Of a DNA stretch of 64,000 nt, positions 27,733 to 58,047 are shown piece after piece. The stretch lies in NCBI GenBank assembly GCA_014871385.1, contig CM026423.1, positions 3,228,408-3,292,407 on the forward strand, given 5' to 3'. The translations under genes were made by a program, and so were the position numbers. Origin of the DNA: Ceratodon purpureus (Eukaryota > Streptophyta > Bryopsida > Pseudoditrichales > Ditrichaceae). Under the pieces are notes generated by a model. It did no database searches. It worked only from the letters and a program-made list of their open reading frames with translations, and was not told the DNA's origin. Position 1 is the first letter of the stretch. Every line of letters starts with the position of its first letter.

Positions 27733-27736
27733 TTAA

Positions 27737-28650
27737 CCCCTAAAGTTCCTTGACTATGTTTCACCAAAAAACACTCCAAAACTGCCATTTCCAATGTAAA
27801 AAGCATGAATGACTAAAAAACAATTTTTTTCTAATTCTAATTGTAAGATCTTCAACTAGATTATTCTGATAGACAGCTCAAAAAATTTCAATACAATCGA
27901 CCGTAGAGATTAGAAGATTATAGCAATTGAAATTTGAAAACAAACTTTTTTGACAAGATTTTTGTCTAGGTTGACACACTCTAACTTTTTTTTTCTTAGG
28001 TTTTTTGCATTATAGATTGTGGAGGTTTTGATGCATGTCAAAGAAGACTAAGTTAGCTAATTTCATTTAAAAAATTACTCTCAAAAGTCAAGTGTAGCAT
28101 GTTGAAAACAATATTTTTATTAAGTTGAATACACAATAATGCTAAATCTTTTTTTTTTTCTAGAAATTCCATAATTTAATAAAGTCCCAATCTAAATGGT
28201 CAATGTAAAGATTGATGTCCACCCTTTCACTGAAAAAAAGAAAAAACCTAATATAATATTTTTTCTAACTTTTATGAAGGAAAGAAGAAGTTTTTTTAGT
28301 ACACTGCCCGAAACGATGAGAAAACTTTGATATTTTGTGGAGTGAACATTATGCACTCAAAGTCGTTTTTTTTTGGAAACCTCAAAGATGACATCATGAA
28401 GTATTTATAGAAATATTCTCAGAGGTAATTGGTATATTTAGCATGGCTGCCCGAATTGCCCATTGAGCAGCTTTTTCCACTTCGGGTACAATGACTATAT
28501 GTCCAATTCAAAAAAAAATTAGATTCCCTCAAAGTTCTTGTTATGGCCTATATTCACAAAAAGTTTCAAAAAATCTTGACTTCAATTGAAGTCACAGGTA
28601 CATGCCCGAATTCTAAAAAAGTCCATTCTAGGACTATGGTCCTTTAGGGG
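27737..28650. mobile_element. Non-autonomous piggyBac-like MITE (subfamily B)
   Basis: Flanked by TTAA at 27733-27736 and 28651-28654. The ends are CCCCTAAAGTTCC and, as reverse complement, CCCCTAAAGGACC: a 9-bp perfect terminal repeat. The 914-bp interior is very AT-rich and non-coding. TTAA target duplication with CCC-type ends is the mark of piggyBac elements. Confidence 0.8.
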
Positions 28651-28654
28651 TTAA

Positions 28655-38060: not shown

Positions 38061-38064
38061 TTAA

Positions 38065-38818
38065 CCCCTAAACGCCTAAACGACCAAAAACTGGTCGTTT
38101 TCATTTTTCCAAGTTCCAAAACTGTCATCCAAATGACAATTTTTCATCCATTTTTTTTTTACGTGGTAAAGTTGAGAGAGATCTATCTAACCTCATTAAA
38201 AAATTCTCAAAATAATAATTTCATGAATTTTGATGCCTCTTTAAAGTCAAAAAGATCAATACCGTGTGTGTATTCAAAAATTCCTTGATACAGACAGCTG
38301 AAACATAATTTTGACTATCGGGATGATATTTTTTGCAGTTGAGGTAAACCAATGAAATGTAGTTTGGCAAATCTGTTTTCCAGTCCAATTTAAAATTTTG
38401 AAAAATACCTAAAACTGAGTGATTTATAGCTCGTATAAGATGAAGGGGTATAACCGTGGCTACTTCTTGATTTTCCACGGTTTTAGGTTTTTTCATCATA
38501 TTTTTTATTTAAAACATAATTTTTGAGCACGGTAACTAATATAAGGTTTTTGGTTGTCATATTCATCTATGGTAAATATTTCATAATTTTTTAGTATAAC
38601 CTATATTTGATATGAATTTTCTTTGTTTGTTTTGATTTGAAAATTTATATTAATTACATTTTGAAACATTTAATTTTGATAAAATTATTTCTTGTAGATA
38701 ACATGTGTATCTAGCTAAGAAAAGTTTAAAATTCATATTTTACATTATTTATAGTAGCAGAATAGAGCATCCAAAGTCAAAGTCTATTTCCGTGGTCATA
38801 GGCTCAGGCATTTGGGGG
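38065..38818. mobile_element. Non-autonomous piggyBac MITE (subfamily A), 754 bp
   Basis: Flanked by TTAA at 38061-38064 and 38819-38822. The left end CCCCTAAACGCC, then a CGACC...GGTCG inverted repeat, matches the left end of the coding piggyBac at 52011. The right end (reverse complement CCCCCAAATGCC) matches that element's right end CCCCTAAATGCCC. The interior is AT-rich and non-coding, so this is probably a deletion derivative of the coding element or a close relative. Confidence 0.85.
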
Positions 38819-38822
38819 TTAA

Positions 38823-39628
38823 CCCCTAAAGCGTCATATCAACAAAAACGTGTTGATTTAAGTCCAGTCAAGCTCTCCATAAGTCAATTTTCACAAAATG
38901 AAGATGTAATTCTGTTTTCTAACAAGACCATTCATGCTTCACAATTCATCATACTTTAGGAGATATTTGCAGTTAAAATAGGAAAACACTATTGGGGCAT
39001 ATTGAAATTTGCCCAAAACTGCAGCATATGCTCAAAATCTGCCCACAATTAATTAGATCACAGAAACTTCAAAAATTCACCAAAATTTGAGATTTTATAT
39101 TTTTTCAAGTTTTTTTTTGTACATGTATATAAAATTTGAAGGCATGATCTGATTGCTTAGATTTTCAATCTAATATTTTTCCATATGCCTTTTTCACTAT
39201 AATAAAGCCGCCTTTGTTTTTGAATTTCAGCAGACCTCCTTATGAAAAGCAAGCATTTCTTTAGATTTCATAGGTCATATGAGGGAAACAAGTGCATGGA
39301 CAAATTCCTAATCCATCTAGGAACGATAATTTGAAGAGCCCCACGTCAAATTTACTTTTGAAATTGATCTTTTTGCTCACAAAACCCTTGAAATCCATTT
39401 TGCAAGAAGGAGAGAATTTTTTTTTCTTCCAACTTTGAACATTATGATCTCACCAACGGTAAGGAGTTTGAATCTAAGATTTTGATTTCATATACATGTA
39501 CAAGTAAGGTAGTAGATTCTACGGTTATTCCCCCCAAAATACATCAAAACTTAAAAAGTTACACCTTGTATTGAAAAACTCGAGTTTTGAGGGTTTTTGG
39601 TAGTTTTGAGGCTTTTAAAGTTTAGAGG
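38823..39628. mobile_element. Non-autonomous piggyBac-like MITE (subfamily B-like), 806 bp
   Basis: It starts CCCCTAAAGCGTC immediately after the TTAA that ends the previous MITE, and ends with reverse complement CCTCTAAACTT before TTAA at 39629-39632. The two elements therefore share one TTAA. At its right edge TTTAGAGGTTAACCTCTAAA (39621-39640) is a perfect palindrome, which may mark a third, mostly lost element end. Confidence 0.7.
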
Positions 39629-40043
39629 TTAACCTCTAAAGGATTAAGTGTTTGTTTCATAAGCTGGGAAGGATGGAATGACGGCAAAACTTGTTTTTCT
39701 TGAGTTTAGAGACCACCAAGCTCTTACACACCAAATATAGTGAGACCACCAAGTTCTTCCTTGTCTCCCCAACTATTTGAAGAAAAAAATAATAATACAA
39801 TAAAGCAAAACTTTTGGTATCTAAGTCAAATACCGGATGCCTTCACAAATAACTCTATTTTTTTATGGGACATTTTTTTGGGAACACAAATGAAGGAACT
39901 TCATTGCAGAGAGAAATCAGTGGGAACTTTTGGAAGTGAAGCTATGAGCTCTAAGCAGTGAAGATAAGCAGGGCCCAGGCTCTAGCATAGCAGCACCAGC
40001 GTTTTTTTTTACTGGCTAATATTCGCCATTGCCCGACCCCTCT

Positions 40044-45279: not shown

Positions 45280-47153
45280 TCACACCACACTGATCAGACG
45301 ACGAGAAGCGACTGATTGCAAAGGGTTCACCATCTCCGACGACAGCTTCAAAACCTCGGTCAAGTCTACGAACGTCGACGGAGCCGCAGTCCATTCGAAG
45401 TTATGCAACAGCTGCGCTACCCACAACTGCACCGTCGCAAGGCCAAGCGCACGACCGGGGCATACACGGCGACCAGCTCCAAATGGTGCCAGACGAAGAT
45501 CGTTCCCTCGAACATCAATGTCCTGGCCCCCTGCCGACGGCAAAAACCGCTCAGGATTGAACACGTCCGGGTTTGCCCACACCTGGGGGTCGTGCGTGAT
45601 AGCCCACATGTTCACCATGGCAGTGGTGCCCGCAGGAATGGTGTGTCCAGCGACACAGACATCTTGGGTGGAGAGACGCGCCCAGGAGAGGAGAGGGCCG
45701 GGCGGGTGATGACGCAGGGTTTCCTTGATCACTGCCTGAAGGTAGGGCAACCTAGAAAGCTCGCTCTCGAAGGAGGTGATGCAAGTGGTGACATTACGGC
45801 CAAATACGGAGTCGAGCTCGTGTTGCACTTTCCGTTGAATCTCAGGGTGAAGCACCATCTCCGCCATAATCCACTCCGTCAGTATGGCAGTCGTGTCAGT
45901 GCCGCGGAAAATCATTTCCTGCAAAATGAGAAGAACGCCGGTGCATTGATTAAACTATGGTTATGTTTAGGTCCTCAGGGGACAAGTGATGAGTTGTAAC
46001 CCTAAAATTGATTACGGATATCTAGGACAGGTTGCTACAGTCAAATCGGATTATTCCACTTGCAAAAAGAAGAGGAATCACATGGAAGTAGTGATGGTGA
46101 TGGGCTTACCCAGAGTACGGCGATCATATCCTCGTCAGCGAGCTTCTCGTCGCCGCCCAAACCAAGCAACACGTCGACGAAGTCCGTTTCGTAGGACTCG
46201 CCTGACTGCGCAGCTTCGTTGCGTCTCTCGCGGTGCTCATCGATGATTTTCTGCACAAAAGCTGTGACTCGCGGTACGAGCTCCGCGCAGCGCTGATGAA
46301 TCCGCTGCGCGTCGAAACACTTGAGGGCTGGGAGGTGATCGGCCCAGTTGAAGGCCCCGAGCAATTCAAATCCCTCTCGGACCATAGCGTTGAGATGTTC
46401 GGCTTCCTCGGACCCCGACGCGAAGTCATAACGGCGCCCAAAGACGCTGGCCATGATATTGTTCAAAGAAGCTCGTTGCAAGTGGTCACGAACCTGCACA
46501 CTTCCTGACGTCACAACGTCACTCTCGATGGCATTGCGCATGCGCTCGACCTCGGCCAGTCGCGCCTTCTCGTGCGCCGCAATGCGCTTGGGTGCGAACA
46601 AGTGGTTGGCCGCGATTCTTCTCAAGCTGCGCCAGTAGTCACCATGAGGGGCAAACCCAATGGCGCGTCCGAAGAGCAGCTGCTGGGCCGACTGCTTCAG
46701 TGGACGATCTGCAAATGCCGAGCTGTGCAGAATCTCCCGCGCAGTATCAGGCTGACTGGCAATCACGACCCGCGTCTCACCAAAACTGAGCGCCATCAAC
46801 CCAGTCGCCTTGTACCTCACCGCGAGCTCCGCCAGGCGCCTGTGCGCGAGCCCACCCATCTCCATCAAACTACCGATCACCGGATAACCTCTCGGACCAG
46901 GAATGGTCTTCGGACCCCTCACCCGACCCCACGACGACCCCCCGGGCGCAGCCCAGCACACCAACAAACCACAAGCACTTATCACACCCAACACCAACAA
47001 GATCAACAACCCATTCACGTTCGTATACCCCAACGCCTCCTCTATCGACGATCTCCCTTGCTTCACTAGCATCGGCACCGCCAAAAACCACCATCCTCCC
47101 ACCTGACCCCCAGCTGAATCCATCTCACCACACACAACCACCTCTTCTCTCAC
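45280..47153 (-). CDS. Cytochrome P450, CYP78A family
   Basis: Haem monooxygenase anchored in the endoplasmic reticulum. CYP78A enzymes of land plants affect organ growth through an unidentified mobile signal; the substrate is uncertain. Exon 1 is 47153-46110 and exon 2 45918-45280, with a GTAAG donor and TTTTGCAG acceptor in phase 0, at the usual CYP78A intron place. 560 residues from ATG 47153, or 550 from ATG 47123. Features: hydrophobic anchor [19 protein letters not shown] (about 50-70), proline hinge [12 protein letters not shown]-helix IFRGTDTTA (the family's version of AGxDT), ExxR as KETLR, FNPERF, and haem loop [14 protein letters not shown] with the ligand cysteine. All hallmarks are present, so it looks functional. 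The N-terminal start is the only doubt. No TATA box was recognised. Confidence 0.95.
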
Positions 47154-50811: not shown

Positions 50812-50815
50812 TTAA

Positions 50816-51658
50816 CCCCTAAAGGAAGGAGGGGTTTTTCCACAGTTTTTCAGTACCTACCGTGCCATTCTTGTATCTTCCAAAGTGAGACAAATTTGAG
50901 AATCACCATAAGCAATTTATCTGTAAGATCTTTGAAAATAGTGGGTTACCAAAATCTGTACAAAATTTTGGGTTTAGAGAAGCATCGGATTGGGAGATAA
51001 TAACGTGTGAAGTTTGGAACATTAGTGAATTTCTGAAATACTAACAGTGAGTTTCCGAGTTTGACTAAAAAATTGCTACTTCAAAAATTTATAAAAACTT
51101 GGCAACTAAAAGCTAATTCTCTTTTCTAATATGTTAGGAACATGCATAGTTTTTTTAAGATTTTTTCCAAATTACCTATTTGGAGAAAATGTGTTTGACA
51201 TAAGTGTCACTCTGAATTTTATTTTTTTCAACATGGCATTTTTTGGCAAGTTTTAACTTAGGGTTTCTGATAAATCCAAAACAATGAAGTTATAAAGTAG
51301 TGGTCATACAAGCATTCCCCAAAAAAAAATGCTAAAAAAAAAAAAATCCCTCAAATAGAGTTCTTCATTTCAATGCACAATGTGCTCAAAGTGCAGTTAA
51401 AACATTTTCAGTGTAGAAACACTAACTTCACTATAGAAACACTAACTTCATCGTAGAAACATAGGATCGACTCATGTTCTTTCTTTTTTCTAAAATCAGG
51501 GTTTCACTTTTTCACTCAAATTTTAGCGTATTATTATTGCCAACTTGATTCTAAAGAGGTTAGGAACATAAAACACTCAAATCCGACCCTTCTAGGGCAT
51601 TTTATTGGGTTTTCAATTTCTGGCGCAACCCAAAAGTGGTTGCTTCGTCCTTTAGGGG
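50816..51658. mobile_element. Non-autonomous piggyBac-like MITE (subfamily B), 843 bp
   Basis: Left TTAA at 50812-50815 then CCCCTAAAGGAAGG; right end CGTCCTTTAGGGG followed by TTAT instead of TTAA (51659-51662), a one-base change in the target duplication. The terminal repeats match for CCCCTAAAGGA. The interior is AT-rich and non-coding. Confidence 0.75.
51407..51466. repeat. 20-bp tandem repeat, three units
   Basis: Units start at 51407, 51427 and 51447 with the pattern TTCANYRTAGAAACACTAAC; the third decays at its end. It lies inside the MITE at 50816-51658. Confidence 0.85.
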
Positions 51659-53072
51659 TTATGTGTGTACAATAAAGATCCATGGGTACAATAAATATGT
51701 GGTAATATATTTGGCATTTGCTACCAACAAGAAGCTCTAAATTGGGGTTTCAATGGCTCGTAAGAACTACAACAAAAATATGTTATGATGTTTAGGGGTT
51801 TGTAGTATGTGTTAATGGACTAACTATTGTAAAACACATAGTTGGTACATTGTATAGATTTTGTAAAACATAAGTTTAGGTTTTGATGATTAATATTAAA
51901 CCGGTAATTGTTGCAGCGTCCAAGTCATAGAGGTTTGACCATGAAGATCCAATTTTCCTTCATGGCCTGTCTCATTGCAATGAAATATGTTGGATTTGAT
52001 TCTAATTTAACCCCTAAACTCCCAGGCGACCGAAATGTGGTCGCGGCCTATTTTGGGCAGTCAATTGTGAATTCACATTTAGTGGTAAAATCTCCAAATT
52101 TTGTGTGTCAATCTGATTTTTTGAGAGGAATCGCGTGATGTAATTTTTTTTGGAAAATTATTTATGTAGTAAAAGATATAGACCCAAACAGGTAAAAAAT
52201 CTCAACGTGGGCAGGCAGGGACCAATGGGGGAGCTTCTGCATTTCTGCCCTTGTGAAAATTCAAGTGACCAGCTGAAATGGGGCATGGAGAAGGGCAGCT
52301 TGTGCTTTTGTCAGAATAGTGGGTTCCATTGCCAAATAATGGGATGACATCATCCCTCACATCTCATTGGTGCAAAAAACGGTTTAGGAGGTCATGCAAG
52401 GTCATGTTTCATAGTGCTATGACAATGGCCAGTGGACAGAGCTGTGAGTGACAACAAGAGCACCTAAACTTGCAAAATCTGAGCTGTGCAAACACACAAA
52501 TTGCAGTAAAATCCAAATAGCCACAGCCTACTTAGCAACTAGATTGACAGGTGCAGTCCAAAAAAACAAGAGACAATAATGAAAGACGGCCACAAGGCTT
52601 GGATTAGTCTCAAAATGGTGGCTGCAAATCAAATTCCAAGACAAGGAGTACAAATTTGTAGAAAAAGGACCAGAGGCTCATCAATTACAGCCAACACGGG
52701 ACCATGTTGCAGCCACCAAAATACTAATGACCTGCATCTACACCAACGAAAAAATCTGCCTCAACAAGTCTATACCGAAAACTGGAATGAAATAAGGGGG
52801 GAAGCAGGCACAACAGAGACGGGAGGAATCAGTCACACTGAGAGGGGGCTTGCAGTAAGTGAGAGTACATGCAAGGGCGTAGAACCAACAAGGGGGTTCA
52901 GAGATCATGAGGGGCTCGGTAAGGAGGCTGCGGTAGTTTTAGGACCAAGGAGTGGAAGAAAGGGCGAGGACCAGGGGATCGGAACTTACGCTGCGCTGTT
53001 AGTAATCAGGGGAAGGGTCGAAGCAAGGGTCGATACCAGGGGGCGACGTTGCGACAGTCTGTCAACACAGAC

Positions 53073-55988
53073 ATGGCATCAGCACCTGCGGAGGGCGGAA
53101 TGCGAGAGGCAGTCGGCGACTGCTGGGAGGGTGACGCGCCGTCGGGGAGGCCGGGGGCGTCGACTGCGACAGGAAGCTCGTCGCGGGGGAGGGGGAGAAG
53201 GGGTCGGGGGGGTGCATCAGGCCGAGGACGGGGCAGACCCGCTGCTCACGTCGATGTGGGGGAGACTGCAGCTGCTCCCCAGACTGCAGCTGGTCGTGAG
53301 AGAGGGCGGGGGGGCCGACGCGGCACTGGCACAAGGAGGGGAAGACGCCCATTGAGCACACCACCTCCTACAACAGAAACAGCCCCAGAAGAACCGGTAA
53401 GTTATTTCACCAACCCACAAGAGCACATGGGAGAGGAAATCTATATAGAGGACTATGAGGAGGGGGGGATAGGAGAACCGATGACTGATTTCATGGAAAG
53501 CCAAGAGGAGCAACTAAATCTAGCAAGAGAGAGCAGTTGCGATGAAGACAGTGAAGACTCTTTTGATGAAGGAATGTATTCAGAGGCACATGAGATGGGG
53601 TTAGAAGAGATCTTACCTTGGCCTCCAGAGCTTTTATTTTGTCCACAAAAAAAAAACAAGAGAAAGAGAGATGTGGAGAACTATGTGGAGGGGCAAGGAA
53701 GAGTGGGAGAGCCTGGAGCAAGGGCGGGGGAAGAGAGGAGCGGCATAGGCGATGAACTGAGAGCTGCCGGGGAGAGCTCCGCGATGGGAGAGAGAGGCAC
53801 GACTGCGGGAGAGCGCCGAGAGAGGTCGCATGCAGTGGATGGGGGAGAAGACCCCGAGCCCGCCAACGGTCTGCCGAAGGGGTGGACAGGGACGCAGGCA
53901 GAGCCCGGGAACGGGGAAAGGGGCGGGGGGACTCGGCCCGTGCTTGTCCCCGCCAACGAGGCTACGGATGTGAGGACGGGGGCGGGGCTTCAGAGCCCCC
54001 ATGGACGCCCGGGTCCCGGCACTGAGGCCAGGCAAGAGGCCGGGGCCGGCTTGGGGGATGACGGGTTGCTTGAAGAGAGCGGGGCCCGGTTTCAGCCCCA
54101 ACGGGAGTTCCCAACCCCTGGCTCAGAGCATGGGGCCGACTCTGATTTCGAAGTTGCTGGTAGGGGGGGGACGCCTTCGAGAGAGAGGGGCACAGTGCCT
54201 GATATTCAGACAGTTATGGGGACTGGGGGTTCACAGAGAGGTCCACATATTGCACCACTCAATCAGGGTCAGCAAAGAAGGCAAAACCGAAGGTATAGTC
54301 CAATTAGAAGGCCTATTATAGCACCAGAATTGAGTGATGCCACTGACTCTGATGAATCTACTGGGGATGAATTTGATGTTGCAATTGATGGTGAAGGCCT
54401 CGATCCTACAAGTGTCAAATATCGGTACCGGGATTCAACATGGGGCACTTCAAATCACACTTATGAACCGCATCGCATTCAGTGTTGTATGAGAAGTGGG
54501 GCTAAAAAAGATTGGAGGAGAATGCCGTCTTTTATGACATTATTTCATATGTTTTGGCCGTTGTCTTTGTTGAGGACTATTGTCGGGGAGACAAACCGTT
54601 ATGCCACAGAGGTGGATGGAAATGGGATTTCTCGTGGAGGGGATAATTGGGAGCCGCTAACCGTGGCTGGGTTGAAAGTATTTATGGCAGTGATTTTGTA
54701 TATGGGTATGAAAAGGCAACCAAATGTACGAAGTTACTGGATGATGAAACCGTCATTTTTCCATTGCCCAACTATTAGCAACCTCATGTCTAGGAGGAGG
54801 TTTGAATTATTGACAAAGTGTTTACATCTCACAAACCCGACATCGTACATTGATGATCCTCTTTTACCAGGTTATGATAAAATGCGGCAAGTGAGACCCG
54901 TTATGGACATTGTGAGGTTGAATTTCATGAGGGCATGGCAGTTGGGGCCATTTCTCACAATAGATGAAATGATGATTCGGTATAAAGGTAGTTATTGCCC
55001 TGCCCGACAATACATGCCTAAGAAACCTCAGAAATGGGGTATCAAGGTGTGGTGCTTAGCAGATTCTATATCAAAATTTGTATATAATTTTGATATCTAT
55101 TGTGGGAAAAATAGAGATGCAACTAGGAACAATGATGGAGATGTAGAGCCCGTACGCTTACCTCGGGGAGAATCAAGACTTGCCCATGATGTTGTCATGA
55201 AATTGATGGAAGGAAACCATGGGAAGGGTCATTGTGTAGTTATGGACAATTACTTCACTAGTATTGGCTTATTTGAAGAGTTGGCTAATTTGGGGACTTA
55301 TGCAACCGGTACAGTACGAGTCAATCGAGTTGGTTTGCCTCTTGCTTTCAAGAATGTGAAGGACTTCAACAAATTGCCACAAGGGTCACTGGCATGGAGG
55401 ATGCATGAATCACGGGGAATTGCAAGTGTCATTTGGAAGGACAAGAAGGCCGTAGTTCTTTTATCCACCCATGCTTTACCCATAGAGTATCCTTGCATGC
55501 CCATCACAACCGTTCCACGAAGAAATGGCGCAATCAGAGAGAATGTGCCATCGAGTCCTATTCATCATGAGTACACTACTTTTATGAGAGGGGTTGATGT
55601 GGCAGATCAACTACGTGCATCATATACGTGCCAAACTCGTTCGCACAAGTGGTGGCATAGACCATTTTTTTTCCTTCTGGACCAAACAATTGTCAACATG
55701 TATATCTACTATTTGGCAATTTTGGGGCAAGGGCGGATTAGAAGAGCACGTATGACACACCTCCAGTTCAAGACAAATTTCTGTGAAGCTCTCACATGCA
55801 ACTGGCCTCGTAGAAGAGAAGATGAGCCTATGCGCGGTGCTGCAATCCATGTTCCTAAGTGGACTAATTTGCGCCGAATTTGTGTGGTGTGCACCACAAA
55901 GAGGTGTAATTATTATTGTGAACGATGTGAGAACAAATATATGTGCCTGAACAAAGGATGCTTTGAGAATTATCACACTCGAGGTTGA
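53073..55988 (+). CDS. piggyBac-type transposase
   Basis: DDD transposase of the DDE_Tnp_1_7 type, which cuts and pastes at TTAA. The frame is open from 53049; the first ATG is 53073, giving 971 residues. Residues ~1-430 are low-complexity Arg/Gly/Glu-rich, without a known fold. The transposase core begins near 465 (FMTLFHMFWPLSLL). Catalytic aspartates by alignment to Trichoplusia piggyBac: D631 in TIDEMMIRYKG, D725 in VVMDNYFTS, D842 and D845 in GVDVADQL. Other family motifs: YMPKKPQKWGIKVW and SHKWWHRPFFFLLD. The C-terminus (about 935-970) is a Cys/His finger, CVVCTTKRC, YYCERC, CLNKGCFENYH, like that of other piggyBac transposases. The core is intact with no stop. A GTAAGT at 53397 could act as a donor, so the GC-rich head may be spliced. 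The usual family length is about 550-650, so the head is extra. Confidence 0.9.
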   Translation: MASAPAEGGMREAVGDCWEGDAPSGRPGASTATGSSSRGRGRRGRGGASGRGRGRPAAHVDVGETAAAPQTAAGRERGRGGRRGTGTRRGRRPLSTPPPTTETAPEEPVSYFTNPQEHMGEEIYIEDYEEGGIGEPMTDFMESQEEQLNLARESSCDEDSEDSFDEGMYSEAHEMGLEEILPWPPELLFCPQKKNKRKRDVENYVEGQGRVGEPGARAGEERSGIGDELRAAGESSAMGERGTTAGERRERSHAVDGGEDPEPANGLPKGWTGTQAEPGNGERGGGTRPVLVPANEATDVRTGAGLQSPHGRPGPGTEARQEAGAGLGDDGLLEESGARFQPQREFPTPGSEHGADSDFEVAGRGGTPSRERGTVPDIQTVMGTGGSQRGPHIAPLNQGQQRRQNRRYSPIRRPIIAPELSDATDSDESTGDEFDVAIDGEGLDPTSVKYRYRDSTWGTSNHTYEPHRIQCCMRSGAKKDWRRMPSFMTLFHMFWPLSLLRTIVGETNRYATEVDGNGISRGGDNWEPLTVAGLKVFMAVILYMGMKRQPNVRSYWMMKPSFFHCPTISNLMSRRRFELLTKCLHLTNPTSYIDDPLLPGYDKMRQVRPVMDIVRLNFMRAWQLGPFLTIDEMMIRYKGSYCPARQYMPKKPQKWGIKVWCLADSISKFVYNFDIYCGKNRDATRNNDGDVEPVRLPRGESRLAHDVVMKLMEGNHGKGHCVVMDNYFTSIGLFEELANLGTYATGTVRVNRVGLPLAFKNVKDFNKLPQGSLAWRMHESRGIASVIWKDKKAVVLLSTHALPIEYPCMPITTVPRRNGAIRENVPSSPIHHEYTTFMRGVDVADQLRASYTCQTRSHKWWHRPFFFLLDQTIVNMYIYYLAILGQGRIRRARMTHLQFKTNFCEALTCNWPRRREDEPMRGAAIHVPKWTNLRRICVVCTTKRCNYYCERCENKYMCLNKGCFENYHTRG

Positions 55989-56879
55989 AAAAAGGTTTGT
56001 TTTCTACACTTGAAACATGTATTTATTTTTTTGCTCAAACTTGAAATGGTTGTGGTCCATGTTAGAACTTAGTACTTCTTCTTTATTTCTCAACTCCTTT
56101 ACTCTTCATAAATTTATATTTATATTTTTAAAATTTTCCCTTGCTTGAGAGAAATCATTTTCCTTTATGTTGTCCTTACATTTGAGGTTTTGTACCCTAA
56201 TTTTTTCTGACATTGTAAGTGTCATTTCTTTCTTTCTTATCGTTACACTCGAAGTTCTATTTTCTAGTGTTTATTCATAACATTACAAATTTTATAACCT
56301 CATTTTTTTTGGACATTGGCACTTCTATCTCATATTGTTTTTTTCCCTACATCCAAAATTCTATTTACCTCTTTTTTTTTGGACAATACAATTTTTTTTA
56401 CTACATTTGGACTTTTATTTCATTTGGTCTTTTATTACATTTGGATTTATTTTCCCTACCTTTTCAAATTACATTTGGACTTTCATTTGCGTCATTTTCT
56501 TTTTACATTAGAACTCTAATTTCCTTTCCTTTTGGCTTACAACAACAATTTCCTTTTCTTTTTACTCAAACATTAGAATTCATATTTATCTTCTTTATTA
56601 CAGTATAACATCTTACGTTGATCTGATTTTCCTACAATATAAATCTTCTTTCCCTAAATTTTCCTTACATTCAAACTATCATTTCTTGATTTATCCCCTC
56701 ATTTCTTTTTAAGATTTTTTAATTTCTTTTTAATTCTTTTTGAAGACTTTCTGTTCTCAGTTCATTATTTAGTTTCTCTAAATTTTATTTTTTATTTTCC
56801 TATGTTTCCGGTCATCGGAGCCTGATTTTTTATTTTATTTTATTTTTTTTTTTCATACCAGATCATATGTCTTTGACAG

Positions 56880-57265
56880 TGACCAAAGGGAAACCAGTGA
56901 GCAATCTCCATAACAAGGACTTAAGCCACCAAGGGGGTGGGGAATGGAGCCACAACTTAGGCCGGGGTCCAATAGGGGAGCAAGAACGCAGAAAGGGCAA
57001 GGGGATGCTGGCGGCCCCAAGGCTGCGACAGAGCCTGATCCCGGGCGGAGGGCGGGCGGGTGGGTCTCCCCCGCAGCGGCGACCACGGGCAACGTTGCCC
57101 GGTGCTGCTGGAGGGCGGGGCCGGGGCCAGTCACGCAGGGGGCGGGGATAGAGTGCATCGCGGGGGGCGGGAGGAGAACGAGAGGCAGGACGGGGGCAGG
57201 GGGGGGGAACGGGAGGAACGATGGGTGCGGGGGGGGCGGGGGGGGGGGGGGTAGGAAGGGGCAGG
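56880..57265. other. G-rich block inside the piggyBac 3' non-coding part
   Basis: An abrupt GC-rich island in T-rich DNA, ending in long G runs near 57227-57251 that could form G-quadruplexes. Its composition resembles the transposase head-coding region (53.1-54.1 kb), but I could not align them. Overlapping frames on both strands look like composition artefacts. Confidence 0.4.
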
Positions 57266-58047
57266 AGCTGATTCAAAATTGAATCTAGGCAGATGGGATC
57301 CCATGACCTCGGACAGGCTGTCCTATCCAACTGCCAAGGCGATGGTTCACCCACTTTCTGCACCCTTTCCCAACATACACCCGCTGCCCACCTCTTTTTC
57401 TCAACTTCTTTACTCTCTAAGCTATCAGTTTTGATCTTGTCTTTAGTTTTTACTTTTTTAAATTTTTTTTTTTTCCTATATTCATAACATCGTAAAATGA
57501 TTACCTTGACCGTTGGGATTGACAAAATTTTCATTTCTATTGTCTCAATGAAGTGCTTGAAAAATCACAGTGTATGTGTGTGTTGTTTGACCCCCTCCCA
57601 AATATGCATTTTTTTGAAAATGCTACACATATTATTTCACGCTCATATTTGGTACATATACCACCTACCTCATGCTTTCAAACAATTTTGACTTGTCGAA
57701 GTCCAAAAACTTCAAAATGTTTGCATTTAGTTCAAAAAACGGTCACATTCTTCACTGGGCAGGGTCCAAAAAAAAAAATCAGCCCAATTCATACGTTATA
57801 ATCTTTTTATTGAAGAAGAATCAACGGTCAAAAATTGGTGACATCATGCATGGTGGAGTTAGTTATGAGATCATACGGTCAAAACCTACAAATTATTCGT
57901 CAAACATCCACCGGAGGTTAAATTATAGGAAGGGGTCTAAAATCACAGTTTTATGGTTCCAAATGTCTTGGGCATTTAGGGGTTAAGTCCACATTTTGCA
58001 CTAAAAATCTTAGTGTAGTTCTGGATTGCAAGCATTTTAGTGGAACT

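Follow-up and report, generated by a model that had tools for sequence, protein, structure and literature searches.

The window, that is, the whole stretch of 64,000 nucleotides analysed here, lies in contig C3 of the moss Ceratodon purpureus, and all genome searches were run on this one assembly (362.5 Mb, 151 contigs; contigs are given C numbers and loci L numbers below). It contains an element of the piggyBac type with one long transposase gene, and the features of this element are listed in Table 1. TTAA is present on both sides (52007-52010 and 57983-57986, read from the letters of the window), and the terminal inverted repeat (TIR) comprises 18 nt, 16 of which pair. A short TIR with a CCC start, as in the piggyBac superfamily, is present. 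The flanking TTAA and the matching terminal repeats proposed in a first, sequence-only reading of this DNA were confirmed by these data. Kolobok is another superfamily that uses TTAA.

Table 1. Features of the piggyBac element in the window (positions are those of the whole stretch).
Feature	Position	Strand	Remarks
Whole piggyBac element	52007..57986	+	TTAA at either end; 5,976 bp plus second TTAA
Left TIR	52007..52024	+	TTAACCCCTAAACTCCCA; 89 exact genomic copies, window copy included (hand count)
Left-end block, about 400 bp	52007..52406	+	high conservation; free of ORFs of 100 aa or more
Imperfect palindrome	52026..52044	+	GCGACC-N7-GGTCGC; adjoins left tip, nt 20-38 of element
Transposase gene	53073..55988	+	single uninterrupted frame, 971 codons
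N-terminal conserved block	53526..53636	+	RESSCDEDSEDSFDEG (aa 152-167) to WPPELL (aa 183-188)
DDE_Tnp_1_7 domain	54537..55697	+	Pfam; aa 489-875
Catalytic D631	54963..54965	+	D268 of T. ni piggyBac (profile alignment)
Catalytic D725	55245..55247	+	D346 of T. ni piggyBac (profile alignment)
Catalytic D842	55596..55598	+	D447 of T. ni piggyBac (hand count on sequence alignment)
C-terminal Cys-rich finger	55881..55979	+	aa 937-969
Right subterminal motif	57944..57952	-	AAAACTGTG; form typical of the family is close to AAAACTGCSATTT; at nt 35 counted from right end
Right TIR	57969..57986	-	TTAACCCCTAAATGCCCA; pairs with left TIR

Transposase and conserved ends

The transposase gene starts with ATG at 53073 and is terminated by TGA (55986-55988); an alternative TTG start at 53049 would extend it to 979 codons. 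DDE_Tnp_1_7 is the sole Pfam family that exceeds its cut-off in the 971 aa protein (259.9 bits versus a cut-off of 22.4, E = 5.3e-77), and an NCBIfam search of the transposase gave no match. When solved structures were searched with the single sequence, piggyBat was found with E = 1.8e-25 and T. ni piggyBac with E = 2.7e-21; with a profile of 11 moss copies the values were 1.4e-48 and 1.9e-46. Whether the protein might fall outside piggyBac had been named as a check, and these matches place it inside and identify it as a piggyBac transposase. The three catalytic Asp residues are unchanged in all 11 aligned moss copies, as are C937, C940, C949, C952, C958, C963 and H968 of the C-terminal finger, which aligns with the Cys-rich domain of piggyBat and for which a zinc-binding role is predicted. 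The uninterrupted 971-codon frame, the DDD residues and the Cys finger described from the letters alone all held up, and ends, frame and Pfam score bear out the main claim of that reading, an intact piggyBac element in a land plant.

The core of the protein is under strong constraint: dN/dS relative to the window copy was 0.056 for L010, 0.086 for L013, 0.073 for L014 and 0.079 for L015. For the N-terminal 430 aa the same four pairs gave 0.34-0.63, a weaker constraint than in the core, with an uncertain alignment. No Pfam match was found in these 430 aa, including the conserved block that runs from RESSCDEDSEDSFDEG to WPPELL. This block is recognisable in subfamilies A (which includes the window copy), B and C, in a comparison that covered these three, and the 115 aa around it gave at least 145 genomic matches, self included, among the 150 of 192 candidates that were scored. 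Many of these matches sit in long transposase frames. Papers are cited here for the excerpts available; according to one of them the N-termini of the superfamily are non-conserved (PMC11707139), whereas the moss copies retain this block. It is acidic, with Ser residues, and in T. ni piggyBac and piggyBat the loss of N-terminal casein-kinase sites leads to higher activity (PMC11707139). Our guess, by analogy, is that the block might have a role akin to that of these sites.

Conservation is also seen outside the gene. In the left 400 bp, every 100-bp step shows 89-99% identity to the left ends of L014, L015 and L016, at a core dS between window copy and relative of 0.78 for L014 and 0.94 for L015. 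Identity to the same three loci is 67-86% over the last 480 bp of the element and 36-58% over positions 53707-54306, and much of the region 3′ of the transposase gene fails to align. Two further frames, one of 258 aa upstream (52579-53355) and a reverse one in the 3′ region (56863-57534), are mostly poorly conserved, with the stretch at about 52507-52606 as an exception. The region 56900-57260 after the gene is rich in GC and in G runs and resembles the N-terminal coding part in composition; its conservation is poor.

All six arm pairs of the imperfect palindrome that adjoins the left tip are formed in the window element, a score reached by 0.047% of window positions. Scoring covered the ends of subfamily A and the short elements described below, and at least five of six pairs were found in 7 of 8 long subfamily A copies and in 23 of 30 loci with an exact TIR, which share descent and are thus not independent. 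In piggyBat, an imperfect palindrome close to the left tip is bound by two Cys-rich domains (PMC11707139), and because of this analogy we propose the moss palindrome as a candidate binding site of the Cys-rich domain. At the opposite end, a form of AAAACTGCSATTT was present in all 11 right ends compared. It lies at nt 35-36 in subfamily A, in L022/L024 and in one short element; in subfamilies B and D it is found at nt 43-45, which places it roughly one helical turn deeper in the element.

Relatives, short elements and subfamilies in the genome

Searching the genome with the protein gave at least 55 matches, among them a group at 61-87% identity, a second set at 45-57% identity and short pieces. 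Many members of the second set lack stops and have frames of roughly 900-1,000 codons. In nine matches, 850 or more of the 971 residues are aligned with an identity of at least 71%; five of them, window included, are free of stops, and four of the eight other long relatives contain stops. With the Pfam model, the best 116 of 998 candidates scored all reached at least 253 bits (cut-off 22.4). By our own count 93 of these 116 were stop-free, a share that is biased upward because the best-scoring candidates were counted. The DDE_Tnp_1_7 search matched none of 14 control genomes, from which we draw no inference, and among 56 pattern matches in IMG/VR and 94 in bacterial and archaeal genomes none was confirmed as a relative.

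Complete elements were sought by pairing 26 left-end matches (from 42) with 25 right-end matches (from 39). For 17 of the 26, window included, a same-strand right end was found no more than 7 kb away. These 17 two-ended loci, 16 of them besides the window element, are 5.0-6.7 kb long and are distributed over eight contigs. Nine left ends remained unpaired; four of these have a right end at a distance of 12-29 kb and five have none.

The ends themselves are far more frequent than their reversed controls. The inner 14 nt of the TIR, CCCCTAAACTCCCA, occur in 98 exact copies (reversed control: 6), of which 89 are preceded by TTAA as compared by hand. TTAACCCCTAAACTCCCA with up to two mismatches was found at 1,636 places versus 30 for the reversed pattern, a count that takes in both ends because the right end differs from TTAACCCCTAAACTCCCA by two positions. 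For exact TTAACCCCTAAA, the end common to subfamilies A, B and D, 9,407 copies were counted versus 128 for the reversed pattern, and with at most one mismatch it occurs 13 times inside the window (0.39 expected). The first 100 TTAACCCCTAAA places all lie on C1; 62 of them make up 31 convergent pairs of neighbours, and 38 are unpaired. Of the 31 pairs, 19 are 823-934 bp long. Elements of similar length were seen when 30 loci with an exact TIR were taken from the 89; all 30 lie on C1-C4, and the window locus is one of them. Of the 30, 21 measure 900-933 bp, carry both window-type ends and have a pairwise identity of 80-98.5% (median 92.6%). Because of their size these elements of about 930 bp are taken as non-autonomous. 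One of them matches the window element over 54 bp of the left end (93%) and over 28 bp further inside.

Sharing of one TTAA by adjoining elements was considered as an unusual feature and rejected, since the exact sites number 28 (56 rows; none in the control), only about twice the chance estimate of 12, a rough hand figure from 4,700 elements and TTAA density. At C1:26.68-26.69 Mb two 100% identical copies of 5.3 kb (L034 and L035) stand head to tail with one common TTAA, an arrangement that may derive from tandem duplication or from the assembly.

A tree built from 18 moss cores plus two partial PDB sequences separated subfamily A, a neighbour (L022), subfamilies B, C and D, and a divergent subfamily E. 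Subfamily B appears as two clusters without a supported join. The two animal sequences are on very long branches, and the tree gives nothing firm on origin. The end scan did not find common ends for subfamily C, and none were seen for subfamily E, represented by L076 and L077; the identity between L077 and the window copy is 32%. The sequence-only reading had suggested a distinctive plant lineage. Bearing on this are the several subfamilies, the ends shared by A, B and D and the N-terminal block of A, B and C; the comparison with other organisms covered two animal sequences. L076 and L077 (96.9% identical, on C10 and C3) have a GVDTQDQ motif and an extra stretch ahead of the Cys finger, and the common TTAA end does not mark the limit of their similarity. 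They could be domesticated or have other ends.

Insertion site and age

The flanks of the element were joined at a single TTAA and searched against the genome. This search returned the two halves of the window itself, numerous hits on a different repeat in the leftmost part of the query, and seven matches that crossed the joint, one of them by three bases. Five of these seven were aligned; each spans the junction, with small gaps at most, and the identities are 72-78% over lengths of 72-139 nt. The junction reads TTAA in L069 and TTCA or TTGA in the other four. Since five older repeats elsewhere run unbroken through the joined flanks, the window element is an insertion, and it entered a TTAA within an old, decayed repeat. 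The age of this host repeat sets only an upper bound on the age of the insertion.

The closest matches to the window copy reach 86% for the protein over a long stretch, 94-95% for the left end and 92% for the right end. At core sites where L013 and L014 agree, the branch of the window copy carries 24 synonymous changes and 5 that are non-synonymous, and the corresponding core counts on the L010 branch are 12 and 8. With a core site ratio of 1280:343, neutral change would produce nearly four non-synonymous changes per synonymous one. Five changes per 1,280 sites correspond to about 0.4% (roughly 0.8% allowing for small numbers, by hand estimate), and the value of about 0.4% is an upper estimate of divergence since insertion if selection ended at insertion. 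The scarcity of amino-acid changes on the branch of the window copy suggests that it was recently inserted.

L010 and L011, the nearest relatives of the window copy, are on two contigs; between them, 48 of the 5,313 sites aligned are different and six indel runs occur. Part of this closest pair is already dead, because the frame of L011 is interrupted. Decay of the methylation type was rejected as a finding for L011, since its C-to-T changes (2 CG, 2 CHG, 4 CHH) are too few.

Higher identity was found in subfamily D, in a comparison of the right-hand part of the copies. Over about 2,880 nt the copy on C5 is 100% identical (rounded) to two copies on C1 and 99.3% identical to the copy on C6; subfamily D is the younger. 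The C5 and C6 copies terminate at TTAACCCCTAAA, the C1 matches stop there or within nine bases, and 1.3 kb of flank past the right ends gave no match between copies. Because near-identical copies stand at unrelated sites, piggyBac elements must have moved very recently within this genome. The suggestion of recent activity can thus be retained for the superfamily in this genome, on the subfamily D copies and L010/L011, while for the window copy itself the branch pattern makes it likely. The count of near-identical copies that had been called for was similarly split: subfamily D copies are effectively identical, and no locus that was fetched comes nearer to the window copy than 85-88% in DNA.

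Interpretation and relation to known piggyBac elements

We consider it very likely that the window harbours a full-length, probably autonomous transposon of the piggyBac superfamily, which belongs to a large moss lineage and was recently inserted into the TTAA of an old repeat. In the mechanism we infer, the C-terminal Cys-rich domain of the transposase would bind the left-tip palindrome and the right subterminal motif, and the triad D631/D725/D842 would cut the element. Pasting into another TTAA would then leave TTAA on both sides, and short elements with the same ends would be non-autonomous copies that are moved in trans. Such transposition may continue at present.

An intact frame, strong core constraint and the lack of a near-identical copy would also be expected from a domesticated piggyBac-derived gene that kept a host function and lost its mobility. 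We give hardly any credence to this view: both TIRs and TTAA are intact, the left end is conserved although it lies outside the gene, and 16 further two-ended loci exist. Moreover, the constraint was measured between copies at separate sites, as expected of transposase lineages that persist by movement. With its ends and TTAA intact, uninterrupted paralogous sites and numerous copies dispersed over the genome, the element therefore looks mobile and not domesticated. That the window holds an old, dead copy which kept its frame by chance, in a family that has long been immobile, is very unlikely. The closest intact relative is at a core dS of 0.24, and none of the loci fetched exceeds about 88% DNA identity over a long stretch, which fits such a copy, but 5 non-synonymous versus 24 synonymous core changes on the window branch and other piggyBac copies that are 99-100% identical at different sites do not.

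piggyBac has been described mostly from animals, and this would favour recent horizontal arrival from an animal or another eukaryote over a long-resident plant lineage. Several subfamilies, with identities down to 32%, and thousands of ends point to long residence instead, and make recent arrival unlikely; an older transfer or several arrivals may have occurred. A broader reading goes beyond the transposon in the window and sees a deep piggyBac radiation, resident in plants, whose members still move at present and which forms a major class of DNA transposons in this moss. It would include several autonomous subfamilies, ends common to at least three of them, an N-terminal acidic block without Pfam match, a displacement of the right-end sites between subfamilies by roughly one helical turn, and dependent short elements in the thousands. 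We think that this broader reading could equally well prove right or wrong.

The best solved relative is piggyBat from Myotis lucifugus (PDB 9c0f), to which the profile match spans the core through the Cys-rich domain. Like the moss element it has the DDD triad and TTAA, together with an imperfect palindrome close to its left tip (PMC11707139), but it has about 572 aa instead of 971, a palindrome of unrelated sequence and an animal host. T. ni piggyBac (PDB 6x67/6x68) shares the core domain and the triad, and also has TTAA, a short TIR and asymmetric subterminal repeats (PMC10140906); it differs in its length (2,472 bp, 594 aa) and in its end sequences, and its Cys-rich domain is structurally unlike that of piggyBat (PMC11707139). 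Surveyed animal elements share TTAA and TIRs mostly below 20 bp, at element lengths of 1.23-9.51 kb (PMC10813416). Their intact transposases have 503-1,316 aa, most of them 503-675 aa, so the long moss protein alone is not new (PMC10813416).

For plants, piggyBac is stated to occur in passages of two papers that do not name moss (PMC10813416, PMC10140906). In C-Fern it is known as a line of a repeat table, with 1,230 pieces and 122 kb (PMC6890710), and it was annotated in Tisochrysis lutea, a haptophyte alga rather than a land plant (PMC5963040). Further excerpts contained "piggybacking" only (PMC10619864), the piggyBac tool as untried in P. patens (PMC5505980) or piggyBac as a vector (PMC13325672). 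A description of moss piggyBac was not found in the excerpts searched; Repbase was outside this scope, and an earlier annotation is possible. Relative to these excerpts, the moss elements represent a new, large plant lineage of a known kind.

The piggyBac system is a widely used gene-transfer tool of animal origin. A native, recently moving plant piggyBac, if true, could provide a plant-adapted gene-transfer system and a natural case for how mosses silence or tolerate piggyBac. It would also mean that a superfamily not listed for plants in the available passages of a 2008 plant survey (PMC2528002) resides on a large scale in the genome of a land plant.

In the window, four more short elements with piggyBac-type ends were seen, at 27733-28654, 38061-38822, 38819-39632 and 50812-51662. 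The ends of the first resemble those of subfamily B, the second and third have one TTAA in common, and the fourth stops 344 bp upstream of the piggyBac element described here. Just downstream of this element, from 58516 onward, a degraded left end of the family of about 930 bp is recognisable (TTAACTCCTAAATTCC... AAAATGTGGTCGC). About 5 kb upstream of the element, a cytochrome P450 frame is located on the minus strand (46041-47153; Pfam p450, 85 bits).
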